A DNA stretch of 64,000 nt from Prochlorococcus marinus str. SB. GTDB lineage: Bacteria; Cyanobacteriota; Cyanobacteriia; PCC-6307; Cyanobiaceae. Both the position numbers and the translations under genes were made by a program. The stretch is from contig NZ_JNAS01000001.1 of assembly GCF_000760115.1 (NCBI RefSeq), positions 186,001 through 250,000 of the forward strand, given 5' to 3'. This document shows positions 60,398 through 63,840 of the stretch, in pieces. Numbering within the stretch: position 1 is the stretch's first letter; the number at the start of each line of letters is the position of its first letter. Below the pieces are notes generated by a model that saw nothing but the letters and a program-made list of their open reading frames with translations, made no database searches and was not told the origin of the DNA.

Positions 60398-60982
60398 ATG
60401 AGCTTAAGAGTTGGCCAAGAAGCACCAGATTTTAGTGCTACAGCAGTATATGATCAAGAGTTTAAAGAGATTACACTTTCAGGTCTAAGAGGTAAATGGG
60501 TTGTTCTATTCTTTTACCCACTAGATTTTACATTTGTATGTCCAACTGAAATCACTGCATTTAGTGATAGATACCAAGATTTCTCGGCACTTAATACGGA
60601 AATACTTGGGGTATCAGTTGATAGCAAACACTGTCATTTGGCTTGGATACAAACCCCAAGAAATGAAGGTGGTATAGGTGATATTAACTATCCTTTAGTT
60701 TCTGACTTAAAAAGAGAAATTTGCCAGGCTTACAATGTTCTAAATGATGATGGGGAAGCTGATAGAGGTTTATTTCTTATCAATCCAGAAGGAGTAGTTA
60801 TGCATACGACCGTTAACAAGGCTCCTGTAGGTAGAAATGTTGATGAAACGCTAAGGATTCTTCAAGGTTATCAATACGTAGCGGCAAACCCCGATGAAGT
60901 ATGTCCAGCAAATTGGACCCCTGGGGAGAAAACAATGTTAGAGGACCCCAAAGGTAGTAAGGAATATTTTTCTGCGCTATAG
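60398..60982 (+). CDS. 2-Cys peroxiredoxin (AhpC/Prx1 type)
   Basis: A 194-residue cytosolic thiol peroxidase. Peroxidatic cysteine C48 in [12 protein letters not shown] and resolving cysteine C169 in [13 protein letters not shown] (in [10 protein letters not shown]) and a C-terminal YF (KEYFSAL) match the motifs linked to inactivation-prone, eukaryote-like 2-Cys peroxiredoxins, as in plastid 2-Cys Prx. It acts as an H2O2 scavenger of photosynthetic cells. It has a visible promoter. Confidence 0.95.
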
Positions 60983-60997
60983 AAGGATTAGAAACAT

Positions 60998-61750
60998 TTA
61001 AGTAAGTATTGAGTAGTAAATAATTATAAAAAAATAAAAAATAAATATATTCAAAAAGGGGGCAATATCCTCCCTTTGAGGTTTGGGCACTATCCAATCG
61101 CTTAAATTAGTTTTATATGATATGAAGGACCACGTATAAAAAGAAATTTCTATGGTGACTAGGATAAAAAGATTAATTAAATTTAAGTCATTTAAACCAA
61201 AATATCTATAAATATGAAATTGATCATCAACACTAATATTATCAATTTGAAGATGCCAAAGACAGAGTGAAATCAAAATAAAATTTATCAATATTATTTT
61301 TTTTAACAGAAACCTAGATCTCTTAAAAATTAATAAGATAGAAATTAAAAATATGAAAAAACTTAACTGTTGAATATCCGGTTTTGGTACATTAATTCCT
61401 TCAAGAAATAAATTTAATATAAGATCAAAATTTATATATATATAATCAGCTATTAAGTAAGAAAGAAATATTAAATTTATTGCTACCAAGAATAATAGTC
61501 TTTTGCCTTTAATTACTTTTATACTATCAATTTTATCCTTATTAAATTTATAGTATGTATAGTTTTTTAAAGAGTTTAAACACACTAAAGATGGACATAT
61601 TGCACCGCTCAAATAGTAAAGGATTGAATAAAAGGAAATATCATTAATATTAAGTGAATACAAATTAAACCATTGTTTTTGTACAAATGGAAGAATAAGT
61701 AAAAATGAAAGTGTAACTATTAACTTCGATGTATTGTTTTTAATTATCAA
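60998..61750 (-). CDS. Conserved hypothetical multispanning membrane protein
   Basis: A 250-residue protein with about five or six hydrophobic segments (VTLSFLLILPFV, YYLSGAICPSLV, LLFLVAINLIFLSYLI and others). C-terminal SDWIVPKPQREDIAPFLN is polar. No family recognised. Start is TTG at 61750. It lies 33 bp downstream of the FtsH-like gene and is likely cotranscribed, so a functional link is possible but not shown. Confidence 0.75.
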   Translation of the reverse strand: MIIKNNTSKLIVTLSFLLILPFVQKQWFNLYSLNINDISFYSILYYLSGAICPSLVCLNSLKNYTYYKFNKDKIDSIKVIKGKRLLFLVAINLIFLSYLIADYIYINFDLILNLFLEGINVPKPDIQQLSFFIFLISILLIFKRSRFLLKKIILINFILISLCLWHLQIDNISVDDQFHIYRYFGLNDLNLINLFILVTIEISFYTWSFISYKTNLSDWIVPKPQREDIAPFLNIFIFYFFIIIYYSILT

Positions 61751-61783: not shown

Positions 61784-63538
61784 TCAAACTTTCAATAATT
61801 TAGAAGTTGTTAATTTAAAAACTTTTTTATCTATAGTTTCTTGATTTAAAAGTATATCAACTAATTTATCTAGTAAGACTCTGTTTTTTTTCAATATTTT
61901 TATTGAATTATTTAATGAAATTTTTGAAATATTTATGATTTCATTATCTATTCTAGAACTGGTATTTTCTGCTATGAGAGGCTTTCTTCTGAATAATCCA
62001 TCTCCTAAATACATTTCATTATTATCAGAATCCATTGAAATTGGACCAATAATTGAAAATCCATATTTTGTAACCATTTCCCTTACGATATTTGTCGCAT
62101 AAGAGATATCATTCATGGAGCATTGAGTAATTTCACCTTCACCAAAAACTATGGTTTCTGCTGCTCTTCCAGCTAAAGCAACTTCAATTTTTGAAAATAA
62201 TAATTTTTTTGAAATCAATCCACTAGAAATTACATCTTCGTCAGGACATATTTTTGTATATCCTCCTATAAATCCAGATCTAGGTAAAATCGTAATTTTA
62301 TCAACTGATTCAATTCCATTTCTCACAGCAGATACAATTGCTCTACCTACTTCGTTATAAGCAATAATTTTTTTCATATTAGGAGAAGTTATTAATGAGC
62401 TTCTCAGGCCAATAGTAATTTTATCAAGAGCATTTTCTATATGAAGATCACTGATTAATTTAGATTCGTCTCTTGCACAGTGAATAGCACTCTCGTTCAT
62501 CAAGTTTGCAAGATCTGCTCCCGAAAATCCAACTGTTCTAGAAGCCCAATATCCTAAGTCAACTTCGCTTGAAAGTGGTTTTGAAAGTGAGTGAACTGAA
62601 AGAATTTTTTTTCTTCCATCTAAATCTGGAAGCATTACTTCAATTTTCCTATCAAATCTACCTGGTCTTAATAATGCTGCATCCAAAATATCTGGTCTAT
62701 TAGTTGCTGCTAAAACAATAATCCCAGAATTATCAGCAAAACCATCTAATTCAGTTAGAAGCTGATTAAGGGTTTGTTCTCTTTCATCATTTCCACCGCC
62801 GATCCCAGACCCTCTTTGCCTACCAATGGAATCAATTTCATCAATGAAAATTATACAAGGAGATTTTTCCTTAGCCTTGGAGAACAGATCACGAACTCGG
62901 CTAGCTCCAACACCAACAAAAAGTTCTACAAACTCTGATGCCGATATTGAGAGAAAAGGCACTCCTGATTCACCAGCAATTGCTTTAGCTAATAATGTTT
63001 TACCTGTTCCTGGTGGGCCTATTAGAAGAACTCCCTTAGGAACTTTTGCTCCAAGATCTTCAAATTTCTTTGGTTCTTTCAAAAATGTTATTACCTCTTT
63101 TAATTCCTCAGCGGCTTCAGGGACACCAGCTACATCATCGAATCTCGTTTCTACATCATCAATAGTTACAAATTTAGCTTGATTTTTGGTAAAACCAAAA
63201 GCTCTTGAAGCCAATTTTGATGTACTCCTCAAGATTAAGACTATAGCTAATATGAAAATCAGGAAAAGACTTATTGAAGCAAATGAATTAGCAGCTGAGG
63301 CTTCTTTTCTACTGTTGTTAATAGTTAGATCTACCTTATTTTCAGTAGCCTTTTCAAGGATTAATTGATCGTTGTAGAGGATAGGTATTTTAAATTTATC
63401 GCCATTTTTATACAAAACATCAATTTCTCTCTGTCTTGGATAGAAAAATATTGATTCTATTTTCCCCGTCTCTATATCTTCTAAAAGATCAGAATAACTT
63501 GATTTAGAATCTGAATATGAGAATTTTGATCTAAACAC
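61784..63538 (-). CDS. FtsH-like AAA+ protein, protease site lost (FtsHi-type)
   Basis: A 584-residue FtsH homologue. Single membrane helix at about 89-104, where active FtsH proteins have two. AAA+ module complete: Walker A GPPGTGKT (174-181), pore loop FVG (207-209), Walker B IIFIDEID (229-236), [23 protein letters not shown] (278-297). The protease helix reads AYNEVGRAI (393-401) in place of AYHEAGHAL: both zinc histidines are gone (N395, R399). Third-ligand Asp D477 in [11 protein letters not shown] is kept. Start GTG at 63538. Probably a chaperone or a partner in mixed FtsH hexamers. Confidence 0.92.
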
Positions 63539-63669: not shown

Positions 63670-63840
63670 ATGGCTGTACCAAAGAAGAAAAAATCAAAGA
63701 GCAAAAGGAACCAAAGGCATGCTGTTTGGAAAGGTAAAGCAGCAATAGCAGCTCAAAAAGCTATATCTTTAGGTAAATCAGTTTTAACTGGGAAAGCTCA
63801 AGGATTTGTTTATCCTATTGAAGAAGAAGAAGAAGAGTAG
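63670..63840 (+). CDS. rpmF: 50S ribosomal protein L32
   Basis: A 56-residue basic protein ending in an acidic run of six Glu. [20 protein letters not shown] is the conserved L32 start. It lacks the zinc-binding CxxC pair of other L32 proteins, as is usual in cyanobacteria. ATG at 63670; convergent with the ycf20-like gene (3 bp between stops). Confidence 0.95.

Follow-up and report, generated by a model that had tools for sequence, protein, structure and literature searches.

A Prochlorococcus FtsH1-type protein with an intact AAA+ motor and a substituted zinc site

FtsHi proteins, that is, FtsH homologues in which a substituted HEXXH motif accompanies intact Walker motifs, are known from plants and algae, including those of the Ycf2–FtsHi motor: the AAA+ module is kept and HEXXH has given way, in the examples taken from PMC11266112, to TEVGV, NEAAM, REAAV or WAAGR. 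The Prochlorococcus protein described here shares both properties, but belongs to another host and would have other partners. Closer to it, the relevant passages of Mishra et al. (2019; PMC6460958) and of a review (PMC8197885) already report a single FtsHi from P. marinus SS120, with none among the chlorophyll a cyanobacteria examined; the novelty implied by the initial annotation of the present locus, which had proposed a cyanobacterial analogue of the chloroplast proteins, was thus pre-empted. Like the gene studied here, that of SS120 is the one FtsH gene of its genome whose product lacks HEXXH, and the two are almost certainly the same orthologue. However, as far as those passages go, it was counted in a single strain, without sequence, orthology, clade distribution or origin, and among the open-licence literature we found no title on the clade distribution, origin or identity of the Prochlorococcus FtsHi. 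What is new here is the fixation of the broken site across the clade, its apparently single origin, the FtsH1-type identity of the protein and the probable reduction of a neighbouring UPF0182 gene.

According to the sections concerned in PMC11287208 and PMC9020784, FtsH1 and FtsH2 of Synechocystis belong to type B and each associate with FtsH3 in hetero-oligomers (FtsH1/3 and FtsH2/3), of which FtsH1/3 is essential and iron-regulating. The Prochlorococcus gene falls into the same paralogue group as Synechocystis FtsH1 (slr1390), judged from the tree as described in PMC6300248 and from the split reported below, but its product is zinc-dead, and the Cyanobiaceae copies lack a hydrophobic segment before the first domain. 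Picocyanobacterial FtsH4 was equated with Synechocystis FtsH1 by Bonisteel (2018), where the passage in question calls the relation 'less obvious' than the others (PMC6300248); Prochlorococcus FtsH4 is likewise tabulated as a homologue of Synechocystis FtsH1 in PMC11262661, with a presumably parallel function ('cell viability') and, in that table's context, no mention of zinc or inactivity. A further parallel is provided by the type-B FtsH2 (VAR2) of Arabidopsis, which is described as functional with an engineered dead protease site in the parts of PMC9020784 and PMC6019477 devoted to it; that protein is a laboratory mutant of FtsH2 type, whereas the comparable state in Prochlorococcus is natural, fixed and found in an FtsH1 type.

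The ftsHi gene and its product

The window, by which we mean the whole stretch of 64,000 nucleotides analysed (P. marinus str. SB, contig NZ_JNAS01000001.1, positions 186,001 to 250,000), carries the features collected in Table 1. The initial annotation had read NEVGR in ftsHi where HExxH is expected and had taken the motor motifs to be intact. Codons and alignment agree with both statements: residues N395 to R399 align to H-E-[IV]-G-H in relatives, and the Walker A and Walker B motifs, the FVG pore loop and the arginines of the SRH are all in place. Asp477 is also present in this copy, as had been claimed, but the claim does not extend to the clade, in which the residue is variable (see below).

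Table 1. Features of the window at and around ftsHi
Feature	Position	Strand	Basis and remarks
ftsHi, FtsH1-type AAA+/M41 protein with dead zinc site, 584 aa, GTG start	61784..63538	-	ORF; Pfam AAA and Peptidase_M41; NCBIfam TIGR01241, 648 bits; tree
NEVGR (residues 395-399) replacing HExGH	62342..62356	-	window sequence (codons aac gaa gta ggt aga, read from 62356 to 62342) and alignment to relatives
D477 codon, aligned with third zinc ligand	62108..62110	-	alignment; position counted by hand from ORF start
Walker A, GPPGTGKT (residues 174-181)	62996..63019	-	residues from alignment; position by hand
Pore loop, FVGVG (residues 207-211)	62906..62920	-	residues from alignment; position by hand
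Walker B, IIFIDE (residues 229-234)	62837..62854	-	residues from alignment; position by hand
SRH with arginine fingers (residues 279-297)	62648..62704	-	residues from alignment; position by hand
Sole transmembrane helix (about residues 86-108)	63215..63283	-	hydropathy; AlphaFold2 helix 77-113; exact ends estimated
Membrane protein, 250 aa, directly downstream; probable remnant of UPF0182 N-terminal membrane part	60998..61750	-	position; profile homology weak for g1, stronger for g9, g25 and g4
Peroxiredoxin (2-Cys type by eye), convergent neighbour	60398..60982	+	ORF translation; context only
rpmF-like (ribosomal protein L32) ORF, divergent, upstream	63670..63840	+	read by eye; MAVPK signature; context only

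The product has the domain order of the FtsH family, with FtsH_ext, AAA, AAA lid and Peptidase_M41 recognized by Pfam (PF00004, 158.5 bits; PF01434, 152.8 bits; both above cut-off) and a TIGR01241 score above the cut-off of 600. It does not have the zinc site of that family, HExxH with a distal Asp: the second His occurs in none of the 73 members of the clade defined below. To judge by these residues, it is an FtsH homologue but not an FtsH metalloprotease, and the substituted HEXXH motif combined with intact Walker motifs places it among the FtsHi proteins.

A hydrophobic segment, the expected N-terminal membrane anchor, precedes the AAA domain in all 73 broken copies. A second such segment upstream of the anchor was found in 0/14 broken and 1/79 intact Cyanobiaceae copies with enough upstream sequence (81 of the 84 intact rows were parsed), whereas in the 19 FtsHs scored from other cyanobacteria the N-terminal segment is more hydrophobic (best 19-residue mean 1.4–2.7, against a median near 0). 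The Cyanobiaceae FtsH1-type proteins (that of L105 and those of other loci) thus seem to be one-helix proteins. A frameshift concealing a first transmembrane helix in the window copy was considered and rejected, as an in-frame stop lies just 5' of the GTG and the open frame spans 586 residues. The AlphaFold2 model (mean pLDDT 79, pTM 0.61) served for fold and secondary structure only; its top PDB matches, all of the same fold, comprise FtsH structures, Ycf2–FtsHi motor chains and the human m-AAA protease.

The host genome (1,669,823 bases) encodes four M41 proteins, and by alignment the remaining three have HEAGH, HEVGH and HEVGH, each with the distal Asp. Likewise, all 18 other FtsHs of six further genomes with a broken copy are intact. 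In a tree of 53 FtsH rows, a split with 100/100 support separates the Cyanobiaceae orthologues, together with nine FtsH1-like copies from elsewhere in the cyanobacteria, from the FtsH2-, FtsH3- and FtsH4-like groups, group names that we take from PMC6300248 and partly assume; one FtsH1-like outgroup copy (L182) falls on the opposite side. Synechocystis FtsH1 itself is not among the rows of the tree, the assignment being made through the FtsH1-like copies of other cyanobacteria and the published tree as described. On this phylogenetic evidence, the window gene represents in Prochlorococcus the FtsH1-type ('type B') orthologue group of cyanobacteria.

Distribution, origin and constraint of the substituted site

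An orthologue with at least 75% identity is present in 77 of the 101 genomes of the genus, many of which are incomplete. In a search of 151 Cyanobiaceae genomes, the orthologues form a distinct top class in nearly all genomes (at least 542 bits, against at most 538 for paralogues). The motif count covers 157 orthologues: 58 from g1, the genus of the window, four from g9, two from g25, nine from g35 and 84 from other genera. The 99 outside g1 derive from 140 such genomes in the family search; the copy of G103 was read separately, and L001–L004, L141 (a paralogue), L163 and L164 (duplicates) and the fragments of G137 and G224 were left out. The zinc site is broken in all 73 orthologues of the four Prochlorococcus genera (g1, g9, g25 and g35) and intact (HE[IV]GH with Asp) in all 84 of the other Cyanobiaceae genera, g18 (including G147) among them. 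The initial annotation had raised the question of whether NEVGR is fixed: the loss of the site is, but the exact motif is not, since NEVGR, NEAGR and NEGGR occur in g1; NEAGK (G108), NEIGR, HEIGK and YEIGR in g9; NEVGK and HEAGR in g25; and QIIGK and QIIGR in g35. As N395 and R399 stand in every one of the 58 g1 copies read, far beyond chance, the site is no peculiarity of a single strain, and its recurrence in relatives excludes a sequencing error that hides an HEXXH.

The second His is replaced by Arg or Lys in 73/73 broken copies (against one of the four plant motifs quoted from PMC11266112), and G103 has Lys there. Since the first His is still present in two of the 73, the second was probably lost earlier. 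Fixation of a basic residue at this dead position suggests that it may have been reused structurally, for example in a salt bridge. Glu396 is kept in 64 of the 73 and is Ile in all nine g35 copies, and residue 477 is Asp in 60, Asn in six, Glu in five, His in one and Gln in one. Across the same 73 copies, the Walker A Lys and Thr, the Walker B Asp-Glu, the FVG motif and the SRH arginines are invariant; elsewhere in Walker A, a single row shows GA instead of GP. The frames, of ~578–615 residues, are open wherever a contig end does not cut them; stops flagged within some g35 and g25 matches were judged not to be real breaks, the matches overrunning the ends of frames that are themselves whole.

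A fifth genus is added by G103, the only g4 genome, whose FtsH1 orthologue (L285:2428-4149, plus strand) has RNASK for HExxH. This copy is extremely divergent (branch 1.95 in the tree without M41) and has also lost the catalytic Glu, but it keeps Walker A (GSPGTGKT) and Walker B. No FtsH1 orthologue was found in G110, G117, G149, G175, G197 and G231 (85–99% complete; two in broken genera). These genomes have two or three M41 proteins each and are mostly drafts, so that gene loss is unproven.

In the 53-row tree, the 12 broken rows form one clade (support 100/99) nested within the intact Cyanobiaceae orthologues. When the M41 columns are removed and G103 is added (13 broken rows), one change between intact and broken suffices (89/90; 90% of bootstrap trees), with g20 and g33 as the nearest intact rows. 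On these trees, the zinc site thus seems to have been lost a single time, in an ancestor shared by the core Prochlorococcus genera; as some rows are long-branched or of odd composition, that single origin is more certain than the exact branch on which it falls.

Selection was gauged by pairwise Nei–Gojobori counting for the AAA and M41 domains apart. The dN/dS values (AAA/M41) are 0.046/0.125 (19 sequences) and 0.048/0.126 (10) for the broken g1 sets and 0.050/0.103 (eight) for broken g35. Those of intact proteins are 0.003/0.021 (eight sequences) and 0.006/0.035 (three) for the FtsH2-type and 0.010/0.023 (10) for the FtsH3-type of g1, 0.014/0.084 for FtsH1 of g22 (10 sequences, eight usable pairs) and 0.008/0.034 for FtsH1 of g5 (five sequences, six pairs). 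The broken protein evolves faster overall, its AAA values of 0.046–0.050 comparing with 0.003–0.014 in intact FtsHs, and some relaxation is real. Its peptidase domain is nonetheless still constrained, because dN/dS is low and the M41/AAA ratio (2.1–2.7; 2.6–2.7 in g1) is no higher than in intact FtsHs (2.3–6.1), which is at odds with the proposal in the initial annotation that selection maintains ATPase but not protease function. Where intact orthologues are conserved at 97% or more, the broken clade departs from them at 22 of 154 columns in AAA and 26 of 65 in M41 (Fisher p 6e-5); the M41 changes include the two His, the Asp and, in the ligand loop, a Gly-Ala pair. We read M41 in this clade as a domain retained as a scaffold around a catalytic centre that is dead.

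The neighbouring gene, a probable UPF0182 remnant

The membrane protein encoded directly downstream of ftsHi is matched by neither Pfam nor NCBIfam at E 0.001. In twelve genera, the gene next to the intact FtsH1 is UPF0182-like (g2, g3, g5, g10, g13, g16, g18, g20, g22, g32, g33 and g36); it encodes 906–955 residues in 21 loci that extend far enough to include its end, runs off the locus in 11, and was confirmed as PF03699 in one case. The corresponding product in g1 almost always has 249–257 residues, two shorter calls being of 221 and 23 (artefact near contig end), and it has 265 in g4, 273–277 in g9, and 263 and 268 in g25; beside ftsHi of g35 there is no such gene in any of nine loci. Compared by hhalign with the N-terminal part of UPF0182, the short proteins give E values of 4e-9 (g9), 3e-6 (g25) and 5e-6 (g4), against 0.3–0.7 for a reversed decoy, which supports the view that they are remnants of the N-terminal membrane part. 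The g1 protein gives a weak match (E 1e-3, probability 19%, 50 columns) and none to that of g9 (E 0.2); it is probably also a truncated UPF0182, an assignment that for g1 rests on position.

A recognizable UPF0182 was found in 0/12 chosen genomes of broken genera and 10/10 chosen intact ones. Family-wide, it is present in 111 of 151 genomes, and the 40 without it, obtained by difference, comprise 29 of broken genera (all those sampled), eight of g7 and three others. The link to FtsH1 within the family is suggestive and not strict, because all eight g7 genomes lack UPF0182 (again by difference, and apparently through an independent loss) with FtsH1 intact in the four read (G106, G140, G195 and G214), and because many intact genera have UPF0182 not next to FtsH1 but further off (e.g. 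G107, G127 and G114) or unlinked (G139). A class-wide comparison of the two occurrences was dropped, FtsH1-type scores being not clearly bimodal and the genes lying far apart outside the family (G263 and G275). One might imagine that core Prochlorococcus dismantled a two-gene module jointly, FtsH1 losing its cutting site and UPF0182, full-length beside FtsH1 in marine relatives, shrinking to a membrane remnant of 250–277 residues or vanishing; UPF0182 would then have been a substrate or regulator of FtsH1/3, and FtsHi a pure motor handling the remnant or feeding FtsH3. We regard this scenario as unlikely.

Possible roles of FtsHi in Prochlorococcus

The pseudo-protease with an intact AAA+ motor that the initial annotation proposed is thus borne out by sequence and fixed throughout the clade. 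As to its role, we consider it rather probable, by analogy with the type-B subunits, that the protein joins intact FtsH3 in hexamers, serving there as a motor subunit that does not cut. A single loss in an ancestor of core Prochlorococcus would have removed two zinc ligands, and with them very probably proteolysis, but left in place the residues that bind and hydrolyse ATP, the pore loop and, as a constrained scaffold, the peptidase domain. The FtsHi subunit would burn ATP and pull substrate without cutting; its partner FtsH3 (type A), presumably paired with it in Prochlorococcus as well, would cut via its own intact zinc sites; and an alternating FtsHi/FtsH3 ring would hold three active sites, not six. 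In the account of type-B subunits given in PMC9020784, inactivation of their protease leaves photosystem II repair uncompromised, whereas inactivation of their ATPase compromises it; the dispensability was demonstrated there for the FtsH2-type partner, not FtsH1, and concerns photosystem II repair rather than FtsH1/3. The dead zinc site and intact motor of the Prochlorococcus FtsH1 would fit this pattern. In the MED4 transcript pool at growth light, the passage in PMC6300248 describes isoforms 1, 2 and 3 as balanced; isoform 4 goes unnamed there, and ftsHi is therefore probably weakly expressed in that strain.

Alternatively, FtsHi might form a ring of its own, a homohexameric unfoldase or translocase that pulls membrane proteins uncut, as is supposed for the chloroplast Ycf2–FtsHi import motor. 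Retention of the motor residues in 73/73 copies accords with this, as do the Ycf2–FtsHi chains (8xqw and 8xku) among the top structural matches, but the latter resemblance is unspecific, the fold being common to all FtsHs and chains from E. coli, Thermotoga and human ranking alongside. The constraint on M41 does not discriminate, since it is compatible with a homohexamer and a mixed ring alike, whereas the hetero-oligomers reported for Synechocystis FtsH1 with FtsH3 (in the relevant part of PMC11287208) speak for a mixed ring; we hold a homohexamer to be possible but somewhat unlikely. The same motor residues, invariant throughout, count against slow decay, in which protease activity would have been lost through relaxed selection during genome streamlining and the remainder would follow. 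Such a course would account for the AAA dN/dS of ~3–6 times that of intact FtsH1, the 26 altered M41 columns, the six genomes of 85–99% completeness without an orthologue (two of them from broken genera), the divergent g4 copy and the reduction of the linked UPF0182 gene; however, dN/dS is far below 1 in both domains, the frames stay open unless a contig end cuts them, and the gene is found in about three-quarters of the genomes of its genus, many of them incomplete, so that we think it quite unlikely.

Asparagine can ligate metal weakly, and retention of Glu396 in 64/73 copies might be taken to mean that the protein still cuts, through another metal geometry (Asn, Glu and Asp) or another nucleophile. 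With Arg or Lys at the second His position in every broken copy, Glu396 itself replaced in g35, residue 477 variable and no conserved replacement ligand noticed on informal inspection, this is most improbable, and the non-cutting partner of FtsH3 is the reading that we prefer.

Overall, we conclude that the Prochlorococcus FtsHi is a better-defined member of the known FtsHi pseudo-proteases. A pipeline that annotates by TIGR01241 would list it as an active zinc protease. Judging from its residues, one of the two subunit types of FtsH1/3 is very probably unable to cut in core Prochlorococcus. The broken FtsH1 resembles a natural, fixed counterpart of the laboratory experiment with a protease-dead type-B subunit, and the reason why phototrophs keep two types of FtsH becomes testable.
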